In this document: one piece after another, positions 7,565 to 61,695 of the stretch
Position numbering within the stretch: the first letter of the stretch is position 1
Layout of the letters: each line of letters starts with the position of its first letter
DNA from: Actinomycetales bacterium
GTDB taxonomy: Bacteria > Actinomycetota > Actinomycetes > S36-B12 > UBA5976
Direction of reading: 5' to 3'
DNA: 64,000 bases
Assembly (NCBI GenBank): GCA_027484085.1
Contig: JAIXQF010000004.1
Location: forward strand, 630,162 to 694,161
The notes under the pieces: model-generated
What the model saw: only the letters and a program-made list of their open reading frames with translations
What the model was told of the DNA's origin: nothing
The model's database searches: none
Position numbers and translations under genes: made by a program

Positions 7565-7857
7565 TGGGTAAATCTCAATATGTCTTGGGCAAGGACATCG
7601 ATTTAGATAGGGAAGTAATTCGCGATAGCCACGGTATGCGGATCACCAGCAAACATGCAGAAAAAATAGTAGAAGAAGTACTTGCACAAGCTGTTGGTCG
7701 TCCATCTTTAACTGGACCGTCTAAAGTTTCGCCTGAAATAAAAGCTAGGGTTCCAGAAAAATTGAAGAAAGCTCTTGTTAAGGAAGCTAAACGTCAAGGG
7801 CAAACAACTTCTGCTGTTATCCGTCAGGCTCTCGAAGAGTATTTAGACACTGCTTGA
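7564..7857 (+). CDS. CopG/ribbon-helix-helix antitoxin
   Basis: A 97-residue protein whose C-terminal 45 residues (SPEIKARVPEKLKKALVKEAKRQGQTTSAVIRQALEEYL) are a typical ribbon-helix-helix DNA-binding unit of the CopG/Arc class. The N-terminal half (VLGKDIDLDREVIRDSHGMRITSKHAEKIVEEVL) would be the toxin-binding part. A strong Shine-Dalgarno (AAGGAGG) lies seven bases before the ATG. The antitoxin is intact although its toxin is frameshifted. Its stop codon ends only two bases before the next tRNA fragment, so the cassette is packed against the attachment site. Confidence 0.8.
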   Translation: MGKSQYVLGKDIDLDREVIRDSHGMRITSKHAEKIVEEVLAQAVGRPSLTGPSKVSPEIKARVPEKLKKALVKEAKRQGQTTSAVIRQALEEYLDTA

Positions 7858-7859
7858 TT

Positions 7860-7903
7860 TGGTGGGGCGGGTCGGGCTCGAACCGACGACCCACGGATTA
7901 TGA
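7860..7903 (-). repeat. tRNA(CAU) 3'-half fragment, second att-like site
   Basis: These 44 bp are identical to the 3' end of the intact tRNA at 15456, including the encoded CCA and the CAT anticodon. Identity stops just beyond the anticodon loop. It separates the toxin-antitoxin cassette from the two-component/BspA cassette. Confidence 0.9.
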
Positions 7904-8027
7904 AGAGAGCCTTGGTGTGTAGCTCTATTTCGTTTGATGTTGGTCTATATAGTGAAAGCAAGGACTTGATTTAGTTTCATGCCGGTTTGTTTGGTCGATA
8001 TCTGCGCCACGAAGTTAAGGAGAAATC

Positions 8028-8480
8028 ATGAATATGGATTTTAAGAAAGTGCTTCCTAAGAATCCCTCGATTTTTGTTGGGTTTCGGGCCGTGAGAATAG
8101 TTACTGGACTCTTTCTGCTCATAGCCTTGGTGCGAAGTTGTATCCACTTATTTGCCTCAGATGGCGGGGCTGGCAGAATTGCAGGTGTCGACACTACTGT
8201 GTCCGGTGGAGATAACATCATTGCAATTTTCCATCAATGGGGTGCGATTCAGTTAATTCTTGCGCTACTACTTTCCCTTCTATTCTTGCGTTACCCAGGG
8301 TTTACCCCACTTATCCTTCTTACCCTCGCGCTTGATCCAATTCTGCGCTGGATAGCAGGACAGATGTTGCCATTAACAACTGTCGGCACGCCCCCAGGTG
8401 AGAGCCTTAACTGGGTAGCTTTCTTTTTGCTTGGGATTCTTTTCTTATTTTCATTGACAGGAACGAACCAAAAGAATTAG
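8028..8480 (+). CDS. Small four-helix membrane protein of unknown function
   Basis: A 150-residue integral membrane protein with about four hydrophobic segments (roughly residues 17-37, 65-86, 90-108 and 127-145) separated by short loops, and very few charged residues. An AAGGAG Shine-Dalgarno sits six bases before the ATG. The size and pattern recall DUF4345-type proteins, but no diagnostic motif was found. It converges on the histidine kinase gene (15 bp between stops) and is the first gene inside the large cassette. It may accompany the two-component system, but nothing in the sequence shows that directly. Confidence 0.6.
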   Translation: MNMDFKKVLPKNPSIFVGFRAVRIVTGLFLLIALVRSCIHLFASDGGAGRIAGVDTTVSGGDNIIAIFHQWGAIQLILALLLSLLFLRYPGFTPLILLTLALDPILRWIAGQMLPLTTVGTPPGESLNWVAFFLLGILFLFSLTGTNQKN

Positions 8481-8494
8481 AAGTTCGATACAGA

Positions 8495-9601
8495 TTACTT
8501 TGGGAATTTAACCTGAATGCGAAAGCCATGGTCAGGCATGGTGTCTATTTCTTTGACGCCCATAAGAATTGCAACCCAGGAATCGATAATGGCTGTGCCG
8601 ACGCCAGCGGTAATTTTCTCCAGTGAAGTTCCAGCACCATCGTCTGCAATTGCAAGTACAGTCGTTCCCTCATTGTCCGTTTTCGCCTCTAATTGAACTC
8701 TGCTCGCTTTTCCATGAAGCAATGAGTTCAGAACCGACTGTTCGACTATGCGAAAAATTCCCAACTTAGTATCAGGATCAAGGGATTCAGTTTTTTCATC
8801 TATCAGCACCGAAATTTCTATATCTTCTCGATACTGTTCTAAGAGAACATCCAGCGCCGAAGAAAAGCTCCCAGCCTCTAGATTTGGAGTTAATTCCTGA
8901 ATTATGCTTCTCAGATCTTCCGTTCGAGTCTTCTCGAGGCGCAGGATGGCGCGATCTAAAACATCATTTACTTCGTCTGACGATTGTCCTGAGACAGACT
9001 TCAACTTCATGCTGACGACCATTAAATCGGATTGAACACGATCATGTAAAAATTGTGATGTCTGGCGGCGCAATCTTTCATCATATTCAACAAGTTCTTT
9101 GCGTTCAGTTTCAAGTTTCTTTACTAAAACTGTGGCCGTTGAAAGTCGATCTATAATTTTTCGCTCTGCTTGGTGCATAAGCGCTAGTGCTAGCAAGGTC
9201 AAAATCAATGTCACGATAAAAATAGCAGGGGTCAAAGGAACCAGAGCGTTACTTTGGAGGTTAAGTCGTTGCTCGATAATTGAGTTAATGATTGGAAGGT
9301 AGAGGTCGTTCAAAGATAGAAAGAATGCAACCTCGAGAATGTAAAGCAAGGTGCTCTTACTCGACCAGAATCTATATCGATTAAGGAGAAATGCACCAGT
9401 GGCAAAGACCATACCTGGAATTGCCGCTAACACAATAATGAGCCCGCCAGCCCTCCAGCGCTCAGGGCCCGGTGCCACAAAGCTAACCACAGGAATAAAT
9501 CTTGAGAAAAATTGGGCAAAGAAAAAGAGAAAAATCAAATATGGGTTGTAGGGATAGGGACCGATGATTGTGCGCAGGTTCCTGATTCTTCGAGACTTCA
9601 A
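8495..9601 (-). CDS. Membrane sensor histidine kinase (NarL-type partner)
   Basis: A 368-residue kinase with four transmembrane helices within residues 21-145 and little periplasmic sequence, so it probably senses the membrane or a hydrophobic cue. A coiled-coil dimerisation helix follows, with the likely phospho-acceptor His186 in FLHDRVQSDL, the HD-x3-Q pattern of HisKA_3-like kinases. The C-terminal HATPase domain shows an N-box-like EQSVLNSLLHG and a G1 box ADDGAG. The gene overlaps the response regulator by four bases (ATGA), so the two are translated together. It lies inside the tRNA-bounded cassette next to two BspA-type surface protein genes, which makes them plausible targets; this is inference. 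Confidence 0.88.
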   Translation of the reverse strand: MKSRRIRNLRTIIGPYPYNPYLIFLFFFAQFFSRFIPVVSFVAPGPERWRAGGLIIVLAAIPGMVFATGAFLLNRYRFWSSKSTLLYILEVAFFLSLNDLYLPIINSIIEQRLNLQSNALVPLTPAIFIVTLILTLLALALMHQAERKIIDRLSTATVLVKKLETERKELVEYDERLRRQTSQFLHDRVQSDLMVVSMKLKSVSGQSSDEVNDVLDRAILRLEKTRTEDLRSIIQELTPNLEAGSFSSALDVLLEQYREDIEISVLIDEKTESLDPDTKLGIFRIVEQSVLNSLLHGKASRVQLEAKTDNEGTTVLAIADDGAGTSLEKITAGVGTAIIDSWVAILMGVKEIDTMPDHGFRIQVKFPK

Positions 9602-51006: not shown

Positions 51007-51465
51007 ATGTCCTTAGTAGTCGGCCAAGAAGCTCCAGACTTCACCTTGCAAAATCAGTTTGGTGAAGACGTAAAACTTTCTGATTTCCGCGGCAATAAGA
51101 ATGTCGTTCTAGTTTTCTACCCAATGGCGTTTACTGGAATTTGTACAGGCGAACTTTGCGAGATTCGCGATCAGCGCCCAGCCTTTGTCAGCGACGACGT
51201 TCAGGTCCTAGGTATTTCTTGCGATACTTCTGCAGCATTGAAGGTTTTTGCTGAGCAGGAGAACTTGGACTACCCGTTGCTATCTGACTTCTGGCCACAC
51301 GGCGAAGTCTCAAAGGCTTACGGTTCATTCTTTGAGCCAAGAGGATTCTCAATGCGCGGAACCTTTGTTATTGATAAGGCTGGAATCTTGCGCTGGTCGG
51401 TCGTTAACGGCCCAGGCGATGCTCGGAATACTGATGAATACAAGCAGGCCCTAGCAGCTCTCTAA
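51007..51465 (+). CDS. ahpE: AhpE-type peroxiredoxin
   Basis: A 152-residue thioredoxin-fold peroxidase. The peroxidatic Cys lies in [17 protein letters not shown] (about residue 45), with a second Cys five residues later; the conserved Arg is in [13 protein letters not shown]. The length and motif fit AhpE, a one-Cys type in mycobacteria that reduces peroxides and peroxynitrite, recycled by mycothiol/mycoredoxin. It follows DUF3052 by 55 bp, probably in one transcript ending at the hairpin after the stop. Confidence 0.9.
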
Positions 51466-54025: not shown

Positions 54026-54811
54026 ATGACCATGATTTTATTGCCACCCTCTGAAGGCAAAACTGATGCCGCAGGTAGACAAAAACTAGATTTTAAAAAA
54101 CTTTCCTTTTTGGAACTCTCAGAACAACGTAAAGAATTGGTTGCAGCGGTTATCGCCATGGCAAATGGCCCAGTTGCTAAAACTCGAACTGCACTAGCTA
54201 TCAGCGCCAAACAAGACTTTGAAATAGAGCGCGACCAGAAGTTGTTAACTGCGTCAACGGGTCCGGCATGGTCGGTCTATACCGGAGTTTTGTACGACGC
54301 GATTGACATTGCTTCACTTAGCGCAAAAGCGAAATCAAAATTTGAATCTGAAAACTTTGTTGTGTCTGCCTTATTTGGTTTGATCAATGTCACTGATCGA
54401 ATCCCGTCATATCGACTTTCGGGGGACACGGTAGTTCCAAAGATCGGATCACTAACCAAGTTTTGGAGTGAATCTGTCTCGCAACTAATTGCCGATCAAG
54501 GGCAATTCGTTATCGATCTTCGCTCTGGCAATTACGTGAAGTTAGGTCCAATCCGAAAAGACTTGGCAGACCAAGTTGTAGTGCCCAGAATTATGCAAAA
54601 AATGCCCAAGGGTGCTCCGAAAGTTGTAAGCCACTCAAACAAGGCGACGAAGGGCCGCTTGGTTAGAGCCATGGCGGAATCTGCGAAGTCCGTTATTTGT
54701 GTTGAGCAATTAGCTAACTTGGCCGCGAAAGTGGCGCTAGATGTGGAAATTGTTAAGCCTGCAAAACCTGGCGTTCCGTGGGGCATAGACGTAATTGTTG
54801 AGGTTTTGTAG
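54026..54811 (+). CDS. yaaA: YaaA-family peroxide stress protein
   Basis: A 261-residue DUF328/YaaA protein identified by the N-terminal ILLPPSEGKT, by YTGVLYDAID and by IIDLRSGNYVKLGP-like FVIDLRSGNYVKLG. In E. coli YaaA limits intracellular iron and DNA damage under peroxide stress. It lies 20 bp after the RNase H gene, and katG and ahpE are both in this window. ATG at 54032 is an alternative start two codons in. Confidence 0.88.
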   Translation: MTMILLPPSEGKTDAAGRQKLDFKKLSFLELSEQRKELVAAVIAMANGPVAKTRTALAISAKQDFEIERDQKLLTASTGPAWSVYTGVLYDAIDIASLSAKAKSKFESENFVVSALFGLINVTDRIPSYRLSGDTVVPKIGSLTKFWSESVSQLIADQGQFVIDLRSGNYVKLGPIRKDLADQVVVPRIMQKMPKGAPKVVSHSNKATKGRLVRAMAESAKSVICVEQLANLAAKVALDVEIVKPAKPGVPWGIDVIVEVL

Positions 54812-54872: not shown

Positions 54873-54901
54873 TTGCAACAGATAGTTCACAGGCGTAGGA
54901 A
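54873..54901 (+). promoter_or_regulatory. Candidate promoter of the structured RNA
   Basis: TTGCAA (54873-54878) and TAGGAA (54896-54901) are 17 bp apart. A start near 54908 would coincide with the first base of the folded RNA that follows. Confidence 0.45.
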
Positions 54902-54907
54902 TGGACT

Positions 54908-55036
54908 AGTTAGAAATTGTTGCCCCGGTTCGATCATTGCTAGCCATCGTCGATGACTGGCAAGAGTGTCACCGCAGGGCGCAAGCAATTTCTAGCAAAG
55001 ATAGGCCCCGCAGTAACTCATACTTATTGCGGGGCC
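54908..55036 (+). ncRNA. Unidentified structured RNA upstream of the FAD/GcvT dehydrogenase
   Basis: Nested helices are visible. TAGAAATTG (54911-54919) pairs with CAATTTCTA (54986-54994). GCCC and CGGT (54922-54929) pair with ACCG and GGGC (54971-54980, CA bulge). Inside lies a ~12-bp hairpin from TTGCTAGCCATCG (54937-54949) and CGATGACTGGCAA (54951-54963). A strong GC-rich hairpin follows at 55004-55036. No known riboswitch signature was recognised. It could be a small RNA or a cis-regulatory leader of the gene at 55170. The rest of the 54812-55169 gap shows nothing else clear. Confidence 0.55.
55004..55036 (+). terminator. Strong hairpin, probable terminator or 3' end of the RNA
   Basis: GGCCCCGCAGTAA pairs with TTATTGCGGGGCC around the 7-nt loop CTCATAC, giving 13 pairs. 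The T-run after it (TTCTCC) is weak, so termination may be partial or regulated. Confidence 0.55.
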
Positions 55037-55169
55037 TTCTCCATATCCTTGCAAATCTTTCAAAGATCGCATCTTGGTGTGCGCTAAGTCATCTCAGGTT
55101 TCATCGATTCTTATTGGCTATCTCCAATAAAGTTGGGCTAAGCGCTACAACCTAAAGGAAACCTCTGTC

Positions 55170-57641
55170 GTGGATAACTTGCTTGAAAAAGACCTCACTG
55201 CATCCGAGTTTGATGATCAAGTAAAAACTAGAGCGCTACCAGCTCGCGCACAGACCGTAGTAGTGGGTGCAGGTGTTGTTGGTAGCAGTATCGCGTATCA
55301 CTTAGCTGAACTTGGCCATAAAGATGTACTACTCATTGATAGGGCTTCAGTAGCTGCAGGCACGAGTTGGCACGCGGCCGGGTTAGTAGTTCGCTCCCGC
55401 GCAACTCATGCGATGACAAAACTTTCTTACTACGGAATCGATGCCTACCGCGCAATCGAAAAAGAAACCGGCATCAATGTTTCGTTGCAGCAAAACGGCT
55501 CACTTTCACTAGCCAGAACACCTGGGCGCCTTGATGAACTGCGCTACAGCGATATGGTGGCCCGACACAATGGAATTGCAACCGAACTAGTTTCACCACA
55601 ACGAGTAGCGGAACTGCACCCACTGGCAACTTCAGAAGGATTGCTTGGTGGTATGCATCATGCCGAAGACGGTCATGTCAATCCAGGTCGCGCCGCGCTT
55701 GCATTTGCTAAAGGCGCTCACACTCGAGGTGTAACAATTCGCGAAGGTGTCACAGTTACGGGCGTCCAAAAAGTTAATGGTCGCATCACAGCGGTTGAAA
55801 CAGACCTAGGTGTCGTGGAGTGCGAAAACTTAGTTCTGGCTGCCGGACTGTGGACGAGGGAGCTTGCCGAAATTTGTGGTGCAATGGTGCCGCTTCATCC
55901 TGCAGCACACGTCCACGTAACAACGGATCCAATTGAGGGTGCCGATGTGCCATTGCCGGTGCTTCGAGATCTTGATGGATATCTGTATGTCCGCGGCCAT
56001 AACGGTTCACTTGTCGTGGGTGCATTTGAGCCAGATGGCATTCCAGTCGACCCACGCTCACTGGCTAAAGATTTTGCATTCGGAGAATTTGATCCCGATT
56101 GGGAGCACTTCGCAGCGATCAAGGGATTTGCAGAAGATCGCATCCCAGCACTTAAGACAGCGAATTACTCACGATTCCTTAATGCTCCAGAATCCTTCAC
56201 GCCAGATGCAAGTTTTTGCCTAGGGGAGACCGCGGAAGTTGATGGTCTTTGGATCGCGGCTGGCTTTAACAGCCAAGGAATCATTTATGCCCCAGGTGCC
56301 GGTCGGGCATTAGCTGAATGGATCGTTGCGGGCACTCCTACAACTGACGTATCAGCGGTTGATGTTCAGCGCTTCTCTAAGTATCAATCCAATCGGCCTT
56401 ATCTATTTGAAAGAACTAAAGAAGGTTTAGGTCGCCTTTATGCAATGCACTGGCCATTCCTGCAGCCATACACGGCTCGAAACATTCGCCGTTCACCATT
56501 GCATGAACGTTTGGACGCAGCCGGCGCAGTGTTCGGAGAATTAGTAGGTTACGAGCGCGCGAATTGGTTTGCTCCAGCTGGCGTCAAGCGCGAATACGAA
56601 TACAGCTACCAGCGCCAGAATTGGTTTGAACATTCTGCAACAGAACATAAAGCTGCACGTGAAGCGGTGGCTGTTTTCGATCTCTCAACATTTACCAAAG
56701 TTGAAGTTGCCGGCCCTGATGCCCTGAAGGTTGTGCAGTCTGTTACGACTTCGAATCTGGATGTAAAGATCGGGCGAGTTGTTTACACCCTCATGCTCAA
56801 CAAGGGTGGTGGCATTGAGTTGGATGGCACAATTACGCGACTTGCCGAAGATCGATTCATGGTAGTTACACCAACTGCATCACAGACCAAGACTTTGGCA
56901 ATGTTTCGCCGCGCTACTCGTGGACATGGAGCTGCAGTGTTTGATGCCAGCGCAGGACTAGCAACTATCGGAATCATGGGACCTAACTCGCGGGAGTTGC
57001 TGTCGCGCATTAGCCCGGCTGATTTCTCCACTGAAAACCAGCCATGGGGAACAGCTCGCGAAATTGAAGTTGGAAATGGTTCGGCTATGTGCCTGCGTGT
57101 TAGTTTCGTGGGTGAACTTGGTTACGAGCTTTATCCAACGAATGATATTGCGGTCTCCATCTATGACTCTGTGATTGAAGCAGGTGAAGGTCTAGGACTT
57201 CGACGTGCTGGATATCACGCATTGGATAGCTTGCGAGTTGAAAAGGGTTACCGCCACTTAGGTCACGACATTGGCCCGATTGATGATCCTTACCAAGCCT
57301 CACTTGGATTCGCTGTGAATCTAAAGAAGGGTGACTTCGTAGGTCGCAGCGCGATTGAAGGAAAGCAAAATCCAGATCGTCGCCAGGTTTACATCAAGTT
57401 GGACAATCCTGAGCCGCTATTTGTGCACGACGAATCGATCTTGCTTGACGGAAAGGTCATTGGTCATGTGACTTCTGGTTCTTACGGTCACACCATTGGG
57501 GGAGCATGTGGGCTGGGGAACATTCCAGCAGATGTGCCAGCGGGTTCAAACTTTGTTGTTGATTGCGCCGGAGTATTAACGCCAGCAACCATCAGTGATG
57601 TTCCGTTCTATGACCCAGAGAACTTGCGTCTCAAGGCTTAA
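55170..57641 (+). CDS. FAD-dependent dimethylglycine/sarcosine dehydrogenase-like enzyme with GcvT domain
   Basis: An 823-residue protein: DAO-type FAD domain with VVVGAGVVGSSIAYHLAELGH and TSWHAAGLVVRSR (His of the covalent flavin site), a middle FAO_M-like part (RRSPLHERLDAAGAVFGELVGYERANWFAP), and a C-terminal folate-binding GcvT domain (YTLMLNKGGGIELDGTITRL, SFVGELGYELYP, SLRVEKGYRHLGHDIGP). It resembles dimethylglycine dehydrogenase more closely than the paralogue at 32272 does. The GTG has AAAGGA nine bases upstream. The long 5' region carries a structured RNA and hairpin, so expression may be regulated by the transcript itself. Confidence 0.88.
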   Translation: MDNLLEKDLTASEFDDQVKTRALPARAQTVVVGAGVVGSSIAYHLAELGHKDVLLIDRASVAAGTSWHAAGLVVRSRATHAMTKLSYYGIDAYRAIEKETGINVSLQQNGSLSLARTPGRLDELRYSDMVARHNGIATELVSPQRVAELHPLATSEGLLGGMHHAEDGHVNPGRAALAFAKGAHTRGVTIREGVTVTGVQKVNGRITAVETDLGVVECENLVLAAGLWTRELAEICGAMVPLHPAAHVHVTTDPIEGADVPLPVLRDLDGYLYVRGHNGSLVVGAFEPDGIPVDPRSLAKDFAFGEFDPDWEHFAAIKGFAEDRIPALKTANYSRFLNAPESFTPDASFCLGETAEVDGLWIAAGFNSQGIIYAPGAGRALAEWIVAGTPTTDVSAVDVQRFSKYQSNRPYLFERTKEGLGRLYAMHWPFLQPYTARNIRRSPLHERLDAAGAVFGELVGYERANWFAPAGVKREYEYSYQRQNWFEHSATEHKAAREAVAVFDLSTFTKVEVAGPDALKVVQSVTTSNLDVKIGRVVYTLMLNKGGGIELDGTITRLAEDRFMVVTPTASQTKTLAMFRRATRGHGAAVFDASAGLATIGIMGPNSRELLSRISPADFSTENQPWGTAREIEVGNGSAMCLRVSFVGELGYELYPTNDIAVSIYDSVIEAGEGLGLRRAGYHALDSLRVEKGYRHLGHDIGPIDDPYQASLGFAVNLKKGDFVGRSAIEGKQNPDRRQVYIKLDNPEPLFVHDESILLDGKVIGHVTSGSYGHTIGGACGLGNIPADVPAGSNFVVDCAGVLTPATISDVPFYDPENLRLKA

Positions 57642-57687: not shown

Positions 57688-58029
57688 GACGAGTCGGTCG
57701 GATGATCGCGGGCAGCAATGTTCGAGGAAAGTCCGGACTCCATAGGGCAAGAGTGGTGGATAACGTCCACCTGGGGTGACCCACGGGAAAGTGCAACAGA
57801 AAGTAAACCGCCTAGCAATAGGTAAGGGTGAAACGGTGAGGTAAGAGCTCACCAGTACTTATGGCGACATAGGTAGCTAGGTAAACCCCACTCGGAGCAA
57901 GACCAAGTAGCAGGTGACTGCCCGTCACACGCCTGCAGGTAGGTTGCAACAGGTTGTTGGTAACAACAATCGCAGATGGATGATCATCGCGCGCAAGCGT
58001 ACAGAATCCGGCTTACAGACCGACTCGTC
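57688..58029 (+). ncRNA. rnpB: RNase P RNA, type A
   Basis: The P1 stem pairs GACGAGTCGGTC at the 5' end with GACCGACTCGTC at the 3' end. Conserved parts are GAGGAAAGTCCGGACTCC (CR I), ACAGAAAGTAAACCGCC, GGTAAGGGTGAAACGGTG, and the 3' ACAGAATCCGGCTTACAGACC. It is the catalytic RNA that matures tRNA 5' ends. A T-rich tail (CCTTTTTCTT) follows. It sits between the dehydrogenase and the convergent decarboxylase gene. Confidence 0.97.
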
Positions 58030-58055
58030 CTTTTTCTTGAAATCCCCAAAAGCCT

Positions 58056-59502: not shown

Positions 59503-61695
<2,193 letters not shown>

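Follow-up and report, generated by a model that had tools for sequence, protein, structure and literature searches.

A structured small RNA located between yaaA and the gene for RNase P RNA in freshwater Nanopelagicales-type actinobacteria, with a probable role in trans

The window analyzed here (64,000 nucleotides of an actinobacterial contig) encodes the peroxide stress protein YaaA (yaaA, 54026–54811) on its plus strand, followed on the same strand by a dimethylglycine/sarcosine dehydrogenase-type gene with the domains DAO-FAO_M-GCV_T-GCV_T_C (55170–57641). The RNase P RNA gene (class A, 57690–58031) is located directly downstream of the dehydrogenase gene. The stretch between the two protein genes (54873–55169) had been reported in a preliminary description as an unidentified structured RNA, consisting of a promoter-like pair, a closing helix, inner helices, an internal hairpin, and a GC-rich hairpin ahead of a GTG codon. 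All of these elements were located within 54873–55170, with the GC-rich hairpin measuring 14 bp. The GTG is the start codon of the dehydrogenase gene (55170) and lies 130 bp from this terminal hairpin. The RNA itself is ~135 nt in length and is predicted to span 54905–55043 of the plus strand, with the dehydrogenase gene as a neighbor outside it.

The predicted fold is composed of a long irregular hairpin (54909–54996) and the GC-rich terminal hairpin (55003–55037). The long hairpin contains the closing helix, the short inner helices, and the apical hairpin, which is capped by a triloop (54949–54951), and its internal loops are no larger than ~4 nt per strand. Both of its arms carry conserved sequence, the 5′ arm CCGGUU-GAUCAU and the 3′ arm AGYGUCACCGCAGGGC. 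The terminal hairpin presents a 7-nt loop, CUCAUAC (55017–55023), which is the most accessible 7-mer in the RNA. The minimum free energy (MFE) of 54900–55045 is -69.1 kcal/mol, as compared with -38.1 ± 4.0 kcal/mol for shuffled sequences (z = -7.8; 0 of 200 shuffles as good), and four homologues likewise folded with z-scores of -4.9, -6.0, -5.9, and -5.2. The minus strand was considered as the RNA and rejected, as its fold is weaker (-59.9 kcal/mol versus -67.2 kcal/mol on the plus strand, over an identical 139-nt stretch) and the G-U pairs seen in the pair analysis suit the plus strand.

A blastn search over 60 relatives identified ten same-genus copies beyond that of the window. A covariance model built from 11 sequences detected the RNA in 11 of the 23 genus genomes examined, the same 11 as found by blastn, and detected no copy among the family's other genomes or in the samples from the order and the phylum. 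Fast filters were used in these genome screens, through which very diverged copies could escape; full scoring of the yaaA loci in genomes lacking a match revealed no diverged copies. The class sample was searched by exact-match pattern only, and its single match outside the genus scored nothing with the covariance model. The 106 pattern matches on genome contigs were mostly due to chance, and among those tested with the model, only genus members scored. Searches of plasmid and phage records and of viral contigs yielded no copy of the RNA. The RNA is single-copy in each genome, barring low-scoring antisense or overlapping echoes. The assemblies carrying homologues are actinobacterial, with one named Candidatus Nanopelagicales and several, to judge from isolate names, originating from lakes or reservoirs. 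Across the family, order, and phylum samples searched, the RNA is on this evidence restricted to one genus of freshwater Nanopelagicales-type actinobacteria.

The consensus structure calculated by RNAalifold from the 11 homologues has 48 pairs, and in the pair count 96% of cells are paired. Two-sided changes that maintain pairing occur at 15 of the 48 pairs, against a mean of 5.8 for shuffled alignments, and 0 of 500 shuffles matched the observed paired percentage, number of two-sided changes, or covariation score. When the structure was slid along the alignment, three or four two-sided pairs were found, and never more than four. Several genomes contribute to the changes in helices 1, 3, and 5; those in the terminal hairpin owe largely to the diverged copy in genome G020. 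Mean pairwise conservation is greatest for the RNA (0.84), compared with 0.73 for the promoter block, 0.78 for the start of the dehydrogenase gene, and 0.71 for the end of yaaA. It falls to 0.38 in the interval between yaaA and the promoter and to just 0.44 in the 130-bp spacer from the terminal hairpin to the GTG, and the spacer is not counted as part of the element. A small protein gene or a set of chance inverted repeats has next to no prospect of accounting for these observations. Any 139-nt stretch has short reading frames, but those present here are broken across the homologues by 1-nt indels and stops, such that no frame is conserved, and the compensatory changes and level of conservation speak against chance repeats. 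That the locus encodes a real structured RNA is close to certain.

No Rfam 15 family was matched in the window at the gathering score, and relaxed searches gave chance-level matches only, the best in the window being isrJ (17.1 bits versus a cutoff of 37). Together with the clear compensatory changes, this result bears out the initial designation as an unidentified structured RNA, which a match to a known family or a lack of compensatory changes would have refuted. In G020, the best relaxed match was Ms_IGR-8 (RF02470; 24.9 bits versus a cutoff of 44). This is a weak match of the terminal hairpin that occurs on both strands and reflects a plain hairpin; the loop is different, and no such match was found for the copy in the window. 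We also considered an RNA polymerase-binding RNA of the 6S (RF00013) or Ms1 type, or some other housekeeping RNA missed by Rfam. Like these, the RNA is a stable, single-copy hairpin RNA ending in a terminator-like hairpin, and the genome has no Rfam match to 6S RNA. However, no large central bubble occurs in the window fold, the consensus, or the four homologues, the RNA is undetected in about half of the genus and confined to it, and Ms1 is larger than ~135 nt. SRP RNA, tmRNA, and RNase P RNA are all encoded elsewhere. Ms1 is itself poorly conserved across actinobacteria and has been located through a flanking HAD-hydrolase/oxidoreductase gene pair (PMC9130861), but this pair does not flank the RNA described here. 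Overall, a polymerase-binding or other housekeeping role is very improbable.

A putative promoter (54873–54901) precedes the RNA, with TTGCAA (54873–54878) and TAGGAA (54896–54901) separated by exactly 17 bp. TTGC, the spacing, and GGCGTA are invariant in 11 of 11 genomes and fit the layout of -35 and -10 elements 17 bp apart. A generic sigma-70 scan and a scan for U-tract terminators returned no match at the locus. The former missed the promoter because the -10 element lacks the final T, and the latter was negative because CUUCUCC rather than a U run follows the terminal hairpin. The promoter assignment thus rests on conservation in 11 genomes and not on a match to consensus. Actinobacterial terminators without a U run are reported, and the terminal hairpin is probably an intrinsic terminator of this type. 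By these signals, the RNA would start at ~54905 and end at ~55040.

The gene order yaaA, RNA, dehydrogenase, with the dehydrogenase gene on the strand of the RNA, is found in 10 of the 11 genomes. This arrangement, along with the terminator-like hairpin in between, would fit a cis-acting leader, either a riboswitch or an attenuator, with the long hairpin serving as aptamer and the GC-rich hairpin as a terminator under regulation; glycine, dimethylglycine, or folate had been named as a possible ligand. The RNA indeed resembles the glycine, THF, THF-II, and other one-carbon riboswitches in lying upstream of a gene for a folate-binding GCV_T domain in 10 genomes, but it differs from them in having no Rfam match, in being separable from the gene, and in that no alternative fold for switching was found. 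G020 has kept the RNA together with the promoter, and the order there is yaaA, an RNB-type (RNase II-type) exonuclease gene, the RNA, a convergent amidohydrolase gene, and the RNase P RNA gene. The dehydrogenase gene is 24 kb away in this genome, and no same-strand gene lies directly downstream of the RNA. Conversely, no RNA was detectable upstream of a dehydrogenase relative in G002 (69% identity). The MFE structure accommodates the two hairpins together, and a forced antiterminator was less favorable by 29, 16, and 19 kcal/mol in three homologues; the fourth, L009, is uninformative as the forced constraint fell on the wrong arm. The poor conservation of the spacer also argues against a leader, as does a separate promoter-like block, CAATAAAGTTG (55126–55136), which is kept ahead of the dehydrogenase start in 8 of the 10 RNA-dehydrogenase spacers and is possibly a promoter element belonging to that gene. 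The context in G020, the G002 relative without the RNA, and the costly antiterminator make a leader unlikely, and the ligand-sensing role first proposed was not sustained. The other initial suggestion, a small RNA, is supported: the promoter and presumptive terminator are conserved with the RNA independently of the adjoining genes. From these comparisons, the RNA is very probably autonomous rather than a leader, and read-through regulation of the same-strand downstream gene is possible in the 10 genomes that have one. Judged by its adjacency to the dehydrogenase gene alone, which holds in 10 of 11 genomes, the RNA would have been wrongly assigned as a riboswitch.

In the genomes compared, the RNA goes with a genomic slot, bounded by yaaA on one side and the RNase P RNA gene on the other, and not with the dehydrogenase gene. 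This slot is nearly empty in G003, in which no RNA was detected. In three other genomes without detected RNA (G002, G008, and G022), two genes convergent to yaaA occupy the slot, one for an AsnC-like regulator (identified by eye) and the other amidohydrolase-like. The interval is thus variable within the genus, being empty or containing the RNA and dehydrogenase gene, the RNB gene, RNA, and amidohydrolase gene, or the AsnC-like regulator and amidohydrolase genes. At a further locus (L284 of G009, 7590–8522), a gap of ~930 bp between the RNase P RNA gene and yaaA has a short ORF that looks Doc/Fic-like by eye, judging from the N-terminus, and no copy of the small RNA was found in this gap.

The gene yaaA is upstream of the RNA at all 11 loci, and directly so at 10. 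As a same-strand gene ends ahead of the RNA in every case, the RNA might be a 3′-end element or 3′-UTR-derived RNA that stabilizes or terminates the upstream transcript (yaaA, or RNB in G020). We consider this quite unlikely, since a conserved separate promoter block is found just upstream of the RNA, the interval between yaaA and this block is poorly conserved, and the upstream gene differs in G020.

The reading that best fits the observations as a whole, to which we assign a probability of roughly 0.7, is that of a small RNA, autonomous and limited to one genus, that acts in trans, probably by way of its exposed loop, its conserved internal loop, or both. A free-standing RNA of ~135 nt would be transcribed from its own conserved promoter, and transcription would end at its own GC-rich hairpin. 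As a general kind, trans-acting small RNAs with a terminator hairpin, such as OxyS, are known, and the RNA shares with them its own promoter, a length of ~135 nt, stem-loops, a GC-rich terminal hairpin, and an exposed conserved loop. It differs in lacking an Rfam match and a U run after the terminator. OxyS is an autonomous trans-acting small RNA that sits next to oxyR, and the particular likeness to OxyS is one of neighborhood alone, the RNA here being beside the peroxide stress gene yaaA. A peroxiredoxin (AhpC/TSA) gene (51007–51465), yaaA, and a katG-like catalase-peroxidase gene (59545–61695) all occur within 11 kb around the RNA. These neighbors make peroxide induction of the RNA conceivable, as a candidate for which no operator was recognized.

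The loop CUCAUAC is unchanged even in G020, where the surrounding stem is rewritten. Its invariance and accessibility point naturally to a role in pairing in trans. The exposed loop, for which the complementary word GUAUGAG can span a start codon, would most likely pair with other RNAs. Potential targets were sought among 1,570 genes of G000, called with a simple script for ORFs, and among 561 pairs of orthologues covering ~0.7 Mb of G014. With the loop and the accessible segments as queries, the top matches fell at start codons, at the level expected by chance for words containing ATG. GUAUGAG was not enriched at start codons of the 1,570 G000 genes (6 observed versus 3.9 expected), and in the 561 orthologue pairs, which cover part of one second genome, its conservation ranked 136th of 256 ATG-centered 7-mers. 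A grpE-like gene was the sole case having an exact loop complement in both G000 and G014, which is not significant. Base pairing through the loop is thus proposed tentatively, at somewhat below even odds. The conserved internal loop of the long hairpin may bind a protein or stabilize the RNA, and GAUCAU facing AGYGUCACCGCAGGGC could form a protein site; protein binding as the main job is a possibility that we hold a little more loosely still. CAU within a 7-nt loop is the anticodon of tRNA-Met/Ile2. A more speculative idea is that CUCAUAC is anticodon-like and serves as a recognition site for a factor in translation or tRNA handling, or that it pairs with the start codons of many mRNAs, which would make the RNA a global translation regulator and a new class of small RNA in streamlined freshwater actinobacteria. 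We regard this as improbable.

On the sequence evidence, the RNA is a genuine, previously uncatalogued small RNA family whose general kind is already known. Among the papers searched, none dealt with small RNAs of Nanopelagicales, and next to nothing has been described of regulatory RNAs in freshwater actinobacteria of the Nanopelagicales type. With its strong covariation and its presence in about half of a genus, the RNA offers a model that can be applied directly to lake metatranscriptomes and a single well-defined subject for initial functional work.

The motif TTGC-N15/16-GGCGTAG occurs at five sites genome-wide, as compared with ~1.6 expected from base counts, a difference that is not interpretable. 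A second TTGC-N15-GGCGTAG site (G000:C3:171707-171750), with the same spacing as in the promoter of the RNA, perhaps by chance, is located just before a gene starting AATATGAGC. This gene is apparently leaderless and encodes a protein of 147 amino acids with an N-terminal membrane-like segment.
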